This document shows positions 22,337-30,269 of a stretch of 64,000 nucleotides of DNA, piece by piece. The notes under the pieces were generated by a model, which was given only the letters and a program-made list of their open reading frames with translations, ran no database searches and was not told the origin of the DNA. The translations under genes and the position numbers were made by a program. Position 1 is the stretch's first letter. Each line of letters starts with the position of its first letter. The DNA is taken from contig NZ_JARKOZ010000061.1 in NCBI RefSeq assembly GCF_029978005.1, positions 1-64,000 on the forward strand. The letters are read 5' to 3'. The stretch comes from Solidesulfovibrio sp. Lineage in GTDB: Bacteria; Desulfobacterota; Desulfovibrionia; Desulfovibrionales; Desulfovibrionaceae.

Positions 22337-23770
22337 CTACGGGAACCGGATGGACTTGCTCTCGCCCTTTTCCGTGACGACCGCCGTTTCCTTGCCGTCG
22401 TACCGGAAGACCACGTTGCTCGGATTGCCGAGCTTGATGTCGATCCTTTCGCCGAAGGGGACGGTCAGCCGCTGCCCCTTTTTCACGTAAATTTCCTTGG
22501 CCGGGCCCTTGTCGGGGGTGACGATGACCCAGCTGCCGTCCTGGCCGTAGATCTCCACTTCGCGGCCGCCGCTTGGCTGGGCCGTTTCGCCGCCGCCGGT
22601 CGGGACCGCCGGAGCCGGGCTCGTCGCCACGGCCGGGGCCGGAGCCGAGGGCACGGGCGTGGCGACCGGCGCGGGGGAAGGCATCGGCGAAGGGGCCGCA
22701 GTCGACGCGGCGGGCTTGCTCGGCGTTCCTTCCTCGCCCTTTTTCGCCACGAACTTGAGGGTTTTGACCGAGCCCTTGCCGGCCTGGAGCGGATAGAGCT
22801 TGTTGTCGAAGCGGATCTCCACCGCTCCGGCGTTGCCCAGGCGCACGAGCATATAGTCGGCGAAGCGGCCGGTGAAGGCGTCGCCCTTTTCGAGCATGGT
22901 CTCGTGCATGGCCCCGCCGTCCGCGCCGGCCTGCAGCCAGCAGCGGTCGTTGGCCACGATGGTGACCACGTGGGTTCCCGTGTCGCCCACGGTGAATGTC
23001 TTGGCTGCGGGCGCGCCGGGCGCGGCCACGGGTTCGGGCGCGGGCGGAATGGCCGACGGCGCGGCGGGAGTGGCCGGGCCGCTGTTGGCGATGTCCTGGG
23101 CGACCTGGTCGTCGGGGCTCAGCGCCGGCTGCGGCCTGGTCTCGACGAGCGGCCTGGCTTCGGGCGCGGGGGCCGGCTTCGTTTCGGCCACGGCCGGCGT
23201 CTGCGGGGCCGGCGGAGTCTCGAGGGGTTTCTGGGCCGGCACGACCGGCACGGGACGCGGCGGAACCTCCGGCTCGCTTTTGGCAGGCACGGGTTCGCTC
23301 CGGGTCACGGGCGCGGCCTTGTCGGCCACATCATTGGGCTTGGAAAAGACGTGGGTCCACAGGTACCAGACGAGGCCGACGACCGCGACGACGAGCCCCA
23401 GGCAGATGAGCGCCGGCACCAAGGGGACGCGCGGCCTGGGCGCGGACCGGCGGCCCCGGGTCTGGGCGCAGTCGCACTCGTCGTCCGGGAGGTCCTTTAC
23501 CAGCGGCACTTCCCGCACGGGCGTCTCCTCGAGCTGGTAGACCTCGGCCAGCCGTTTGGAGAAATCTTCCTGGTCGACGCCAAGCAGCTTGGCGTAATTC
23601 TTGATGAAACCCCTGGCATAGACAGGATGGGGCAAGACGCTTTCGTTGCCGTCCTCGATGGCGGACAGGCAACTGCGCGTGATTTTGATCCTGTCCGATA
23701 CGTCCTCGATGGACAGGCCCTGCCGCTCCCGCTCCTCGCGCAGCATCGCCCCTAACTCACGCAAGTCCAT
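22337..23770 (-). CDS. RodZ-like cytoskeletal membrane protein with two DUF4115 domains
   Basis: A 477-residue protein laid out like RodZ, the MreB-linked cell-shape protein. A cytoplasmic HTH domain comes first (about residues 3-65: LREERERQGLSIEDVSDRIKI, then HPVYARGFIKNYAKLLGVD), then a basic juxtamembrane stretch and one membrane helix (about 114-138). A long Pro/Ala linker and periplasmic beta domains follow. Ordinary RodZ has one C-terminal DUF4115 domain. Here one lies at about 255-350 and another at 402-477 (SWVIVTPDKGP, YVKKGQRLTVPF, NPSNVVFRYDG). Start chosen at 23770 with GGAGGAATTT upstream. A gene two positions upstream carries a homologous third copy. Confidence 0.87.
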   Translation of the reverse strand: MDLRELGAMLREERERQGLSIEDVSDRIKITRSCLSAIEDGNESVLPHPVYARGFIKNYAKLLGVDQEDFSKRLAEVYQLEETPVREVPLVKDLPDDECDCAQTRGRRSAPRPRVPLVPALICLGLVVAVVGLVWYLWTHVFSKPNDVADKAAPVTRSEPVPAKSEPEVPPRPVPVVPAQKPLETPPAPQTPAVAETKPAPAPEARPLVETRPQPALSPDDQVAQDIANSGPATPAAPSAIPPAPEPVAAPGAPAAKTFTVGDTGTHVVTIVANDRCWLQAGADGGAMHETMLEKGDAFTGRFADYMLVRLGNAGAVEIRFDNKLYPLQAGKGSVKTLKFVAKKGEEGTPSKPAASTAAPSPMPSPAPVATPVPSAPAPAVATSPAPAVPTGGGETAQPSGGREVEIYGQDGSWVIVTPDKGPAKEIYVKKGQRLTVPFGERIDIKLGNPSNVVFRYDGKETAVVTEKGESKSIRFP

Positions 23771-25113: not shown

Positions 25114-26778
25114 TTAAGGGAATTCGAGGACACGGCTTTCTTTTTTTCCGACGACCACCGTGGTTTCCCGGCCGCCGTGGCTGTAGGACACTTCGCTCGG
25201 GCTGCCAGGGCGCACCACGAGCTTTCGCGTAAAATCCAGCCGAAACGGCTTGCCGGGCTTGAGGTAGACGCGTTGCTCCTGGCCGTCGTCCACGGTGTAC
25301 AGCAGCCAGCTCGCCTTGATGGCCGTGAATTCCACCGCGTCGCCGGCGCTTTTTTCCACTGCCGGCGCGGGCGTGGCCGCCGTTCCCGAAGCCGGGGGCG
25401 CTTCGGCGGACGCGGACGACGCGCCCTGAGCCGACGCGGCCTGGGCCGCTGGAGCGGCTTCGGCGGACGCGTCTTGGCGCGGCGTCTCCTGGGAAGCCGG
25501 CGCGGCGTCCACGGGGGAGGCCGGCGCCGCCTCGGACGCGACGACTGGGACGGGGCTTTCCGGCGCGGCCTCTTTCCCGGGCGCGGACGGCCCAGGCGCG
25601 CCCGGAGCCGGCGGCGCGACGGATGCATTTTGCTCCGGGCCTGCCGGTGACGCTGGGGCCGGCGACGGGGCCGGTTGGACCGGCGGCGCGGCAGGCGCGG
25701 GTTCGGGCTCGGCGCGCCGCGACTCCACGGCCTTCTTGGCCTCCCGGGCCAGGCGTTCCCGGCCGGCCGCCTCCTCCCGGGCCAGGGCCAGCTCGTCCGG
25801 GCCGGGCGCGGGTTCCGCCTTGGGGGCTTCCTGCCGGTCGGCCAAAAGCAGCGGCGTGACGGTGATCTTCGTTCCGGCCACGGCCGCGTCGAGCCAGGCG
25901 GCGAAGGCGGCGTCGAGCTTCTTGGCGGCCAGGGTCGCCTCGACCCGGGCGTAGGCCTTGGCCGGATCGAGCACCGTGGCCGGGCGTCGTTCGAGCAGGA
26001 CGAAGAAATCCCCGCCCTTGCCGTTTTTCCCGTCCTTTCCGTCTGAAACCACGGCCGAGGCCTCGCCGGGCTTGAGCGCTTTGAGCGCCTCGCGCCACGG
26101 GGCCGGCAGGTTGGCCTCGGGCAGGTCGAGCTCCGTGGCAGCGACGCCGGACAAGCCGTTCAGGGCGGTCTGCCCGCCCTTTTTCGCCGCCGCCTGGGCC
26201 GCTTTGAGGGCCTCGACGGTTTCGCCCTGCACGCGGACGAGGCGCACCCGGGCCGGCATGGCAAAGTCCGCCACGTGTTCCTTGTAAAAGTTGGCAGCCT
26301 CGGTCACGTCCACGCGCACGCCCGGCCGCAGCACCTCACGGGAGAGCTTCTCCAGGGCCAGTCGGTCGGCCAGGAGTTCCCGCCAGCGGACCGGGTCGAT
26401 GCGCTCCTCGAGCAGCATGCGGGAGAAGGCCTCGTCGGAATAATCGGCTCGGGCCTTGGCCTCGGCCGCGTCGATCTCGGCCTTGGACACGGCCTGACCG
26501 CGTTTGGCCAGTTCCTGGGCGGCGAGCCTGGCCACGATCATCTCGGCCAGCACCGCGCCGTACTCGGCGCGAAGCCGCTCCACGGCGGGATTGTCCATGG
26601 CCGGCGCGCCGATCTGGCCCATGTCGTGGCGGGCGCGCACGTCGGCCAGACGGATGGGCTCCTGACCGACCACGGCCACCACGCCCGGCTCCTCGCCGGG
26701 CTCGCCCCGGCAGCCGCCAAGGCCGAGCCCCAGGCCGACCGCCAGGGCGAAAGCCAGGGTGCGCCGCGCCGTGCTCAC
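25114..26778 (-). CDS. SurA/PpiC-like lipoprotein with a C-terminal RodZ-type DUF4115 domain
   Basis: A 554-residue lipoprotein. A signal peptide ends in the lipobox LGGC (Cys near residue 23). Residues 30-180 form a SurA-type chaperone region (VVAVVGQEPIRLADVRAR, then LAEMIVARLAAQEL). A divergent parvulin-like part follows (RVQGETVEALKAAQ, then FFVLLERRPAT). After it comes a long Ala/Pro-rich linker (about 335-475) and a terminal DUF4115 domain (about 480-554). That domain aligns by eye with the last domain of the RodZ-like protein nearby: SW, then the YLKPGK, GSPSEVSY and GRETTVV segments, and a final FP. Such a fusion is unusual. Its ATG overlaps the mfd stop by 4 bases. Confidence 0.85.
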   Translation of the reverse strand: MSTARRTLAFALAVGLGLGLGGCRGEPGEEPGVVAVVGQEPIRLADVRARHDMGQIGAPAMDNPAVERLRAEYGAVLAEMIVARLAAQELAKRGQAVSKAEIDAAEAKARADYSDEAFSRMLLEERIDPVRWRELLADRLALEKLSREVLRPGVRVDVTEAANFYKEHVADFAMPARVRLVRVQGETVEALKAAQAAAKKGGQTALNGLSGVAATELDLPEANLPAPWREALKALKPGEASAVVSDGKDGKNGKGGDFFVLLERRPATVLDPAKAYARVEATLAAKKLDAAFAAWLDAAVAGTKITVTPLLLADRQEAPKAEPAPGPDELALAREEAAGRERLAREAKKAVESRRAEPEPAPAAPPVQPAPSPAPASPAGPEQNASVAPPAPGAPGPSAPGKEAAPESPVPVVASEAAPASPVDAAPASQETPRQDASAEAAPAAQAASAQGASSASAEAPPASGTAATPAPAVEKSAGDAVEFTAIKASWLLYTVDDGQEQRVYLKPGKPFRLDFTRKLVVRPGSPSEVSYSHGGRETTVVVGKKESRVLEFP

Positions 26779-29700
26779 GCCGCCGCACCCTCCCCGGCCA
26801 ATCCGGCCAGTTCCACGGTCCAGACGGCCACGGCCTCGGGAAAGGCCAGGCCGGCGTCAAGCGGCAGGGCCAATCGGCCCGGGGGCAAGAGCTTCACGCC
26901 GCCACCGGCGCGCGCGGCGGCGAAGTCCACCAGGCGCTCGGGCGAAACGGCCGCGTCCTCGGCCTCGAAGGAGACCACCAGGCGCGTGGGCGCGACCTCG
27001 GCCTTGCGCGCCCCGAGCCTGGCCAGCGCCTGCTTGAAGGCGAGCACGGCCCGGAAATTCTCCACTTCCACCGGCGGCGGACCGAAGCGGTCGCGCATCT
27101 CGGCCATGCGCTCGGCCAGCCCGGCCTCGGTGCGGGCCGTGGACAGGGCCTTGTAGAGGCGCAGACGGTCCGAGGCCTCGGGCACGTAGCGCTCGGGGAT
27201 GCGGGCCGCCACACCGAGCGTCAGTTCCGGCTCGGTGCGCTCCTTGACCGGCTCGCCCTTGAGCCGCCCCACTTCCTCGGCCAGCATCTCGAGGAACATG
27301 TCCAGGCCGATGCGGGCGATGTGGCCGGACTGGGCCTCACCCAGGATGTTGCCCGCGCCGCGCAGGCGCAGGTCCTCCATGGCCACCTGGAAGCCGGCCC
27401 CGAGGTAGTCCATGTCCAGGATGACGCGCAGGCGCTTTCGGGCCAGTTCCGGCACCTTCTCGATGCTCGGCACCACGAAGTAGGCGTAGGCCTGGCGCGG
27501 CGAGCGCCCCACCCGGCCGCGCAGCTGGTAGAGCTGGCCCAGGCCGAACATGTGGGCGTTGTCCACGACAAGCGTATTGGCCCGGGGAAAATCCAGGCCC
27601 GACTCGATGATGGAGGTGCACACCAGGATGTCCGTCTCGCCGTGCCAGAAGCCGTGCATGGCCTCCTCCAGGGCGGTCTCGGACATCTGGCCGTGGGCCA
27701 TGGCCACCTTTGCGCCCGGGGCCAGCGTCTTGACGAAGGCGGCCACGTCCTCCAGGCCCTGGACCCGGTTGTGGACCCAGAACACCTGGCCCTGGCGCTC
27801 GAGCTCCCGGCGCAGCACCTCGCGCAGGAAGGCCTCGTCGCGCTCGACCAGGGCCGTTTCCACGGTCTTGCGCTCGGCCGGCGGGGTCTCGATGACGGAC
27901 AGGCCGCGCACGCCGGAAAGGGACAGTTGCAGGGTGCGCGGAATGGGCGTGGCCGTCAGCGTCAAGGCGTCGATGTTCTTCTTGAAGGCCTTGAGCCGCT
28001 CCTTGTGCTTGACGCCGAAGCGCTGCTCCTCGTCGAGGATAAGGAGGCCAATGTTGGGGATGGTCACGTCGCTCGACAGGATGCGGTGGGTGCCGACCAG
28101 GATGTCCACCTCGCCGCGCGACACGGCGTCGAGGACCACCTTGCGCCGCTTGGGCGTGACGAAGCGCGAGAGCATCTCCACGCGCACCGGAAAGCCTTCC
28201 AATCGGGCGGCGAAATTCTGAAAGTGCTGCTCGGCCAGCACCGTGGTCGGACACAGCATTGCCACCTGCTTGCCGTCGAGCACAGCCCGGAAGGCGGCGC
28301 GCAAGGCCACCTCGGTCTTGCCGAAGCCCACGTCGCCGCAGACCAGCCGGTCCATGGGCTCGGGCCGTTCCATGTCGGCCAGCACGTCGGCGATGGCCTT
28401 TTCCTGGTCCGGCGTCTCCTCGAAGCCGAAGGTGGCTTCGAACTCCAGGTACAGCTCGTTGGTGGGGCCGTAGGCGTAGCCCTTGGCCACCTGGCGGTAG
28501 GCGTACATCTCGACCAGATCGGCGGCGATGCGCTCGATGGCTTTTTTCGCCCGCTCGCGCACGGACTTCCAGCGCGCCCCGCCCAGGCGGTCCAAGGGCG
28601 GCGCGACGCCCTCCGGACCCTTGTAGCGCTGGAGCAGCCCCAGCCGGTCGGCCGGCAGGTACAGCTTGTCCTCGTCGGCGAAGACCAGCAGCAGGTAGTC
28701 GCCGCCGGTGGCGTCCACGGTCATGCGCGTGAGCCCCTCGAAGGAGCCGACGCCGTAGTCGCGGTGCACGACCAGGTCGCCGGGGCGGATGTCGTCGAAA
28801 GAGGTCAGGCCCTTGAAATCCTTGTCGCGGCCGCGCCCGGCCTCGCCGCCCGAGGACTCGGGGTGCAGAATGTCCTCGGCCAGGATGCGGGTGTCGCGCC
28901 AGGAGAGCTCCATGCCGTGGCGAAGCCCCGAAAGGAGCGCGAAAAGCCCCGTCTCGCCCGGGCTGTAGCTCGTGCGAAAGACCAGCCCCTCGGGCTCGAT
29001 CATCTGGAGGAATTTTTTGCGGGAGCGCTCGCCGTGAAAGGACAGGATGGTCTGGCCGTGGCCGTTCCATTCCTTGAGCGCGGCCGTGAGCGTGGTCCAG
29101 GGCCGCTTGTCCGAGCCGGGCTTCCAGAAGAGGTCGCCGAAGCGCTCCAGGGATTTCTCGGCCAGGTCCGGGCCGTGCCGGCCCCGGCCCATGACCAGAT
29201 CCTCGAAGAGGATGCGCCGGCCGGAGACCAGGGCCTTGCGGGCCATGTTCTCGGGCCAGAGCACCCGGGCATTGGGCCAGGGATGGCCCTGCTCCTTGGT
29301 CTGGGCCTCGAAAAAACGCCGCCAGGCGTGCTCGGCCTCCTCCAGGCGTTCCTTGACCCGGGCGGCGTCGCACACGATCCAGGCCGCGTCCCCGGGCAGC
29401 CAGTCGGACAGGGCGGCGGGCTTTTCGTAGAAAAGCCCCGGCCACATGCCGCCGTCGCCGGCCGCGATGGCGGCCTCAAGGCGCGCTTTGGCCGCGCGGT
29501 GCAGCTCCCCGGTGCCGGCGATGGTCTCCCACAGGGCCGCGGCCTCTTCCTTGAAGGTCTCCGAGAGCACGGCCGGGGCGGCGGGCACGAGCACGGCTTC
29601 GGACAGCTCGGCCAGGGAGCGCTGGGAGCCGGCGTCGAAGCGCCGGGCGGCCTCCACCGTGTCGCCGAAGAATTCCAGGCGCAGCGGGTCGTCGTAGCCC

Positions 29701-30269
29701 GGGGGAAAGATGTCCAGGATGTCGCCGCGAAGGGAGAATTCCCCGGGCCCGGTGACCATGGGGGCGCGCTTGTAGCCCCAGAGCACGGCCTGCTCGGCCA
29801 CCAGGTCGCGCGGCAGTTCCTCGCCCACGGCAAGGGTGAGCACGTTGCCGTCCAGGGCTCGGCGGCACGGCCATTTGGGCAGCAGGTTGTCGGCGGAAAA
29901 GAGGAAGGCGCGCGGCCCGGAGCCCAAGGCGGCCTGGGCCAGGAAGGCCATGCGCCTGGCCCAGAACGCGCCGCTTGGCAGGCCCGGGGCGTAGGACGGC
30001 AGGGTCATGACGGCGCGGCCCCAGAGGGTGCCGGGCCCGGGCGGCACGAGCAGCTCCAGGAGGGCGGCGATGCGCGTCAGTTCGTTGTGTCCGGGTGCGA
30101 CCACGGCCACGGACTGCCCGCGGGAAAGGGCCTCGGCGGCCAGGAAGGCCAGGGTGGCCGGGCCGCTTTTGTAGACCGAAACGGAGTCGGGGCTCTCCAG
30201 GAGCGCGGCAAGGGGGGATGTGCGGGACAAAACGGGCCTCGTGGAAATACGGGATGGCCGCCGCCACAT
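26775..30269 (-). CDS. mfd: transcription-repair coupling factor Mfd
   Basis: A 1164-residue superfamily 2 translocase that removes RNA polymerase stalled at lesions and recruits UvrA. The N-terminal UvrB-homology region is present, then the RNA-polymerase-interacting domain (GDLVVHRDYGVGSFEGLTRM at about 505). The RecG-like motor has Walker A CGDVGFGKTEVALRA, the DEEQ box and ATPIPRTLQLSLSGVR, and a TRCF C-terminal domain closes the protein. The start is uncertain. The ATG at 30269 lies in the loop of a GC hairpin with no ribosome-binding site. A TTG 13 codons on (30230), preceded by ACGAGG, is an attractive alternative giving 1151 residues. The stop overlaps the lipoprotein gene start. Confidence 0.95.
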   Translation of the reverse strand: MWRRPSRISTRPVLSRTSPLAALLESPDSVSVYKSGPATLAFLAAEALSRGQSVAVVAPGHNELTRIAALLELLVPPGPGTLWGRAVMTLPSYAPGLPSGAFWARRMAFLAQAALGSGPRAFLFSADNLLPKWPCRRALDGNVLTLAVGEELPRDLVAEQAVLWGYKRAPMVTGPGEFSLRGDILDIFPPGYDDPLRLEFFGDTVEAARRFDAGSQRSLAELSEAVLVPAAPAVLSETFKEEAAALWETIAGTGELHRAAKARLEAAIAAGDGGMWPGLFYEKPAALSDWLPGDAAWIVCDAARVKERLEEAEHAWRRFFEAQTKEQGHPWPNARVLWPENMARKALVSGRRILFEDLVMGRGRHGPDLAEKSLERFGDLFWKPGSDKRPWTTLTAALKEWNGHGQTILSFHGERSRKKFLQMIEPEGLVFRTSYSPGETGLFALLSGLRHGMELSWRDTRILAEDILHPESSGGEAGRGRDKDFKGLTSFDDIRPGDLVVHRDYGVGSFEGLTRMTVDATGGDYLLLVFADEDKLYLPADRLGLLQRYKGPEGVAPPLDRLGGARWKSVRERAKKAIERIAADLVEMYAYRQVAKGYAYGPTNELYLEFEATFGFEETPDQEKAIADVLADMERPEPMDRLVCGDVGFGKTEVALRAAFRAVLDGKQVAMLCPTTVLAEQHFQNFAARLEGFPVRVEMLSRFVTPKRRKVVLDAVSRGEVDILVGTHRILSSDVTIPNIGLLILDEEQRFGVKHKERLKAFKKNIDALTLTATPIPRTLQLSLSGVRGLSVIETPPAERKTVETALVERDEAFLREVLRRELERQGQVFWVHNRVQGLEDVAAFVKTLAPGAKVAMAHGQMSETALEEAMHGFWHGETDILVCTSIIESGLDFPRANTLVVDNAHMFGLGQLYQLRGRVGRSPRQAYAYFVVPSIEKVPELARKRLRVILDMDYLGAGFQVAMEDLRLRGAGNILGEAQSGHIARIGLDMFLEMLAEEVGRLKGEPVKERTEPELTLGVAARIPERYVPEASDRLRLYKALSTARTEAGLAERMAEMRDRFGPPPVEVENFRAVLAFKQALARLGARKAEVAPTRLVVSFEAEDAAVSPERLVDFAAARAGGGVKLLPPGRLALPLDAGLAFPEAVAVWTVELAGLAGEGAAA

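Follow-up and report, generated by a model that had tools for sequence, protein, structure and literature searches.

How growth of the outer membrane keeps step with growth of the cell wall is, to our knowledge, an open question. The described systems closest to the locus reported here are the chaperones of the SurA, PrsA, Cj1289-PEB4 and LIC12922 type and the periplasmic domain of RodZ, RodZ_C (PF13464), which we take to be the newer name of DUF4115. PMC6946637 describes the periplasmic part of RodZ from B. subtilis as disordered at first and then folded into an all-beta domain.

We analysed a stretch of 64,000 nucleotides from a Solidesulfovibrio sp., called the window hereafter. On its minus strand, mfd is followed by a lipoprotein gene, surA and rodZ (Table 1), with 183 bases between the lipoprotein stop and surA. 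The lipoprotein is composed, in this order, of a signal peptide, a SurA/PrsA-like chaperone region, a Pro/Ala-rich linker and a RodZ_C-like C-terminal domain. The lipobox cysteine marks the signal peptide of bacterial lipoproteins, and the first-pass annotation of the protein as a lipoprotein agrees with an LGGC motif whose Cys23 is conserved in each of the 12 orthologues aligned from the window's genus. From this motif and its conserved cysteine we infer a putative anchoring in the membrane through a lipid. In E. coli, the +2 rule is the basis for sorting a lipoprotein to the outer membrane; by analogy with this rule, outer-membrane sorting would follow.

Table 1. Features of the mfd-lipoprotein-surA-rodZ region (positions in the window) and strong MreB matches of the same genome.
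Feature	Position	Strand	Basis or remark
mfd	26775..30269	-	stop overlaps lipoprotein start by 4 bases (GTGA)
Lipoprotein gene, 554 aa	25114..26778	-	GTG start, stop 25114-25116; ORF exact
Cys23 codon, lipobox cysteine (LGGC, residues 20-23)	26710..26712	-	by eye
N-terminal chaperone region, residues 33-312	25843..26682	-	SurA_N_3 and Rotamase_2 matches; SurA/LIC12922/Cj1289/PrsA-like fold
Long helix, residues 327-356	25711..25800	-	predicted (AlphaFold2 model)
Pro/Ala-rich low-confidence linker, residues 357-477	25348..25710	-	AlphaFold2 model
RodZ_C-like C-terminal domain, residues 480-554	25117..25341	-	alignment, profile comparison; predicted all-beta
surA, 329 aa	23941..24930	-	SurA_N and one rotamase region
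rodZ	22337..23770	-	HTH_25, hydrophobic stretch (transmembrane by eye), two RodZ_C domains
RodZ_C copy 1, canonical, GNAG motif	22745..22960	-	Pfam
RodZ_C copy 2, GNPS motif, nearest relative of lipoprotein domain	22340..22561	-	Pfam, alignment, tree
Strong MreB matches	G000:C18:3368-4351 and G000:C31:12450-13409		profile matches in the window's genome

The N-terminal part had been read at first pass as SurA-like, and both profiles and fold are in line with this. SurA_N_3 (27.7 bits, Pfam cut-off 27.2) and Rotamase_2 (38.7 bits, cut-off 27) scored above cut-off, and the best solved-structure matches of the full-length AlphaFold2 model in Foldseek were SurA, PrsA and other PPIase or SurA-like proteins (3.8e-9 to 3nrk, 5.0e-9 to SurA 9hg5_F). 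VIA-align gave Z 13.3 and rmsd 3.1 against SurA 8pzv_F (158 aligned), and residues 33-311 of the model matched SurA, LIC12922, Cj1289 and PrsA. The model used was the best of five, with a mean pLDDT of 69.8 (50-54 for the other four). By profile and predicted fold, the lipoprotein is a SurA/PrsA-like periplasmic chaperone, its activity being putative. No HTH domain was present among the three Pfam families listed for it at E <= 10. Residues 357-477 lie below pLDDT 50 in the model and are taken as disordered; chaperone region and C-terminal domain are 131-224 residues apart in 12 orthologues, helix included.

In RodZ of the window, Pfam reports HTH_25 with 79.8 bits and RodZ_C with 46.6 bits for copy 1 and 29.9 bits for copy 2. 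The mean column identity of copy 2 is 90% within the genus, and it carries GNPSS where the other genera aligned have GNAGG. The loss of GNAGG, together with this level of conservation, suggests that copy 2 and its orthologues are probably a distinct functional subtype. Two strong MreB matches (502 and 437 bits), lying on separate contigs, are also present in the genome, as are two weak ones and one MreC.

The C terminus of the lipoprotein had been aligned by eye at first pass with the last domain of RodZ. The alignment was recovered without gaps, with 34% identity between the lipoprotein domain and RodZ copy 2 over 73 residues (53.5 bits), versus 25% over 64 residues (27.7 bits) for copy 1. 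The motifs named from the letters (SW, Y-x-K-x-G, P-S-x-V-x-Y/F, G-x-E-T-x-V-V and FP) are present in both domains, as SW, YLKPG / YVKKG, PSEVSY / PSNVVF, GRETTVV / GKETAVV and a final FP. Beyond the three DUF4115 domains that the annotation had counted in the two genes around surA, the window's genome (96% complete) gave no RodZ_C match at E <= 10.

The proposed search against the DUF4115 profile succeeded between profiles and not with the single sequence. Scanned alone, the lipoprotein domain scored 15.4 bits (E 0.018) and did not reach the Pfam cut-off of 23.9, and RodZ_C was absent from the Pfam listing when the whole lipoprotein was scanned. Whole lipoproteins of a nearby genus, g44, gave 22.6, 19.1 and 15.2 bits (E 1e-4, 0.0013 and 0.021), all under the cut-off. 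When orthologous domains were scanned singly, 16 of 17 matched RodZ_C at E <= 1, the best at 1.3e-5. Comparison by hhalign of 12 lipoprotein domains with 24 RodZ_C domains of other genera gave a score of 72.6 (probability 98.4, E 9.5e-15), to be compared with a mean of 11.0 (sd 2.6) and a maximum of 22.2 in 200 column shuffles, and with 14.0 for the reversed profile. The probability was 98.3 against copy 2 (score 73.8, shuffles at most 18.9) and 82.1 against copy 1. An independent HMM, whose 31 RodZ_C domains all came from RodZ proteins of other genera with a single such domain, found the domain in 15/15 complete fusion lipoproteins (E 2e-13 to 1e-8) and in 0/33 of the others, 48 lipoproteins being searched. 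Profile comparison, by which the annotation had proposed that an unrelated domain would be recognised, thus upholds homology. The lipoprotein domain has GSPSE and Ser-Trp, versus GNAGG(V) and a Cys-Trp start typical of the other genera aligned, and copy 2 of the same genomes is likewise devoid of GNAGG(V) and of the Cys-Trp start. Since its Pfam score is below the cut-off, the domain is filed as a diverged RodZ_C homologue and not as a member by Pfam's rule. On these comparisons, residues 480-554 are almost certainly a diverged copy of RodZ_C, fused to a chaperone lipoprotein.

Modelled alone with AlphaFold2 (19 sequences, RodZ copies included), the domain is predicted to form eight strands with a mean pLDDT of 86.8. 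In the full-length prediction, made from five lipoprotein sequences alone, it reached about 87-93 pLDDT per ten-residue block in the best of five models. A predicted beta domain behind a low-confidence linker fits the description of B. subtilis RodZ in PMC6946637. Among solved structures, no relative of RodZ_C was found by sequence and no clear one by fold, and the predicted domain fold weakly resembles several unrelated beta domains. TRAP RNA-binding proteins gave the best VIA-align match (Z 7.6; 8.1 in the full model), which was taken as a common arrangement only.

We surveyed the occurrence of the fusion with a profile of the lipoprotein domain over 288 genomes of the family, up to 19 candidates being scored per genome. 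Matches of at least 87 bits were obtained in 13 of the 14 genomes of the window's genus, Solidesulfovibrio, and in all three of g44, which is the nearest among the loci compared (Mfd identity to the window 66%, versus 52-62% in other genera). The 14th Solidesulfovibrio genome (G002) is 69% complete and shows, at the end of a contig, no more than a piece resembling copy 2. Outside both genera the best of the matches listed reached 38.8 bits, and the weak family matches at the loci examined (G016, G018, G059, G060, G061, G063, G071, G078 and G084) are RodZ. With the same profile over 395 genomes of the phylum (up to 14 candidates scored per genome), such scores were found, among the matches listed, only in the window's genome and three of g44; two weak matches in this sample scored 26.8 and 28.3 bits (G314 and G523). 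A Pfam search of 197 phylum genomes at E <= 1e-4 reported RodZ_C in 105. Two RodZ_C in one frame occurred among the 197 only in the window's genome and in G085 of g44; G527 has two on separate contigs. The longest three frames with RodZ_C outside the fusion genera (G346, G481, G508) are, by eye, ordinary RodZ with HTH and RodZ_C. A scan of named genomes with a single lipoprotein sequence gave no match, and a scan with the genus alignment gave six loci, five of Solidesulfovibrio and one of Desulfovibrio sp. DV. No description of such a RodZ_C-lipoprotein fusion was found in openly licensed papers, in agreement with the first-pass statement that none was known.

The 51 loci then read comprise the window itself, 40 regions taken from 39 of 58 other genomes and ten further regions. 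All had been selected for containing a match, and the counts of gene order apply to such loci. The order mfd-lipoprotein-surA-rodZ is intact in 46 of the 51, the remaining five being cut by a contig end. Complete lipoproteins carry the domain in 15/15 cases in the two fusion genera and in 0/33 cases in the others, which answers the survey of relatives proposed at first pass. RodZ_C domains per complete RodZ follow the same partition, with two in 16/16 proteins of the fusion genera and one in 32/32 elsewhere. Fusion and second RodZ domain co-occur, and in the genomes searched they do so only in the two genera. The full four-gene order is also seen in 31 of the 33 unfused loci (a contig end truncates the remaining two). 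Because the row occurs also without the fusion, the position of the domains on either side of surA, which the annotation had noted, is not in itself evidence for a new link.

Unfused lipoproteins end near residue 320 or extend into a tail, at most about 134 residues long, that has no RodZ_C match. In a genome of another genus (G027, L059:6245-7849), the orthologous lipoprotein has two terminal PEGA domains (39.2 bits, cut-off 20.8) where the fusion has its RodZ_C-like domain, which suggests that the lipoprotein end accepts unrelated beta modules. Another genome, G007, has two differing versions of the surA-rodZ region (L041 and L042, on contigs C20 and C186), with lipoprotein domains 67% and 77% identical to that of the window; this assembly may be a mixture of strains.

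A tree of 80 domains unites the lipoprotein domains (100/99) and places them with copy 2 (100/97), and copy 1 groups with the RodZ_C of other genera. Branches are long, and copy 2 as a group of its own has a support of 77/47 only. Of 74 columns, six are shared between copy 2 and the lipoprotein domain while being rare both in copy 1 and outside the two genera; none is exclusive to the lipoprotein domain and copy 1, and one is exclusive to copies 1 and 2. In the AU test, the grouping of the lipoprotein domain with copy 1 was not rejected (p 0.062). Trees were also built after dropping six long rows and one of the two groups. The lipoprotein domain stands alone when copy 2 is left out; without the lipoprotein domain, copy 2 branches with the single RodZ_C of G018 (91/77). 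In neither case is the remaining group placed beside copy 1. From the tree grouping and the six columns, a sister relationship between the lipoprotein domain and copy 2, both arising on the same stem, is probable.

Selection was estimated from dN/dS in seven chosen genome pairs, of 66 possible among 12 genomes; the pairs are not independent. Values were 0.02-0.18 for the domain, 0.07-0.38 for the chaperone region and 0.40-0.78 for the linker. The domain had the lowest value in 7/7 pairs, which indicates a purifying selection stronger than on the chaperone region. Its mean column identity within the genus is 79%, versus 57% for the whole lipoprotein. The domain is kept by selection and is not decaying.

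A mechanism may be proposed on this basis. In the common ancestor of Solidesulfovibrio and g44, RodZ_C would have been duplicated within rodZ to give copy 2, and another domain of this type would have been placed at the end of the lipoprotein behind the long Pro/Ala-rich linker. With the lipid anchoring the lipoprotein in the membrane, a tether of 131-224 residues would let the domain cross much of the periplasm. There it may dock on a partner that RodZ copy 2 also binds, candidates being a protein of the Rod complex (PBP2, RodA or MreC) or nascent peptidoglycan, and docking would hold the chaperone where the wall is built. That the tethered domain docks on the periplasmic partner of copy 2 is the reading we tentatively favour, short of calling it probable. 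We counted for it the homology, the branch with copy 2 (100/97), the six columns, the co-occurrence, the dN/dS values, the chaperone fold and the presence of MreB and MreC. Counted against it are the identity to copy 2 of only about one third, the small number of columns (6/74) for a common ligand site, and the diverged motif loop, GSPSE versus GNPSS. The PEGA pair of G027, the AU p of 0.062, the 77/47 support of the copy 2 group and the long branches count in the same direction. So does the statement in PMC6946637 that E. coli can largely do without the periplasmic domain of RodZ for its rod shape.

The PEGA pair is also the main fact in favour of a different role, in which the small beta domain would bind peptidoglycan or an abundant envelope component as a generic surface- or wall-binding module and anchor the chaperone, its RodZ origin being accidental and without link to the elongasome. 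The weak likeness of the predicted fold to several unrelated beta domains points the same way. However, it would then be coincidence that a second RodZ domain of the same subtype accompanies the fusion in every complete locus read and that the two domains share six derived columns, and we consider this role somewhat unlikely, though to be taken seriously. Quite unlikely is a direct pairing, where the lipoprotein domain would bind RodZ copy 2 and bridge the membranes of the two proteins. The two domains are probably sister copies found in the same genomes, and self-interaction of RodZ in the periplasm is reported in PMC6946637, but is attributed there to the disordered part and not to the folded domain. 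The domain could also cap or regulate the chaperone region of its own protein, being on the same chain in 15/15 complete fusion proteins; the fast-evolving stretch of 131-224 residues between them, mostly of low confidence in the model, and the 33 orthologues from other genera that lack the domain make this very improbable. Chance resemblance, or an unrelated beta domain, could be invoked from the single-sequence Pfam score under the cut-off and from the lack of a clear relative among solved structures, but is practically ruled out by the shuffle test, by the outside-genera profile (15/15 versus 0/33) and by the 16/17 orthologues matching RodZ_C.

At first pass, a common periplasmic partner had been suggested, possibly linking outer-membrane protein folding to wall elongation; such a partner and such a link would both fit the co-occurrence. 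A new RodZ_C subtype that arose in one lineage, carried by RodZ and by a lipid-anchored OMP chaperone of the same operon and directed at the same partner, might physically couple delivery of outer-membrane proteins to the cell-wall elongation machine; this complete scheme is speculative and, in our judgement, unlikely. The 75-residue domain would make a small, separable bait in a search for what the periplasmic domain of RodZ binds. Should the partner be a generic wall component, the locus would still be a clear example of one gene capturing a domain from its neighbour in the operon.

Compared with known systems, the locus joins two domain types, each already known, in a lineage-specific fusion. 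The lipoprotein domain resembles the RodZ periplasmic domain by profile homology over about 70 residues, by its C-terminal position behind a Pro-rich linker and by its predicted all-beta fold; it differs from it in scoring under the Pfam cut-off, in being carried by a lipoprotein in which no HTH was detected and in having GSPSE instead of the GNAGG typical of the other genera aligned. With SurA, PrsA, Cj1289-PEB4 and LIC12922, the lipoprotein shares SurA_N_3, Rotamase_2 and the fold matches, whereas the listed structural alignments cover its N-terminal part and not its C-terminal domain. It is also distinct from SurA itself, for which a separate surA is the next gene. The unfused lipoproteins of other Desulfovibrionales genera have the same N-terminal region and lie before surA in 33/33 loci; they are short, tailed or, in G027, extended by two PEGA domains, whereas the fusion carries a RodZ_C-like domain at its C terminus.
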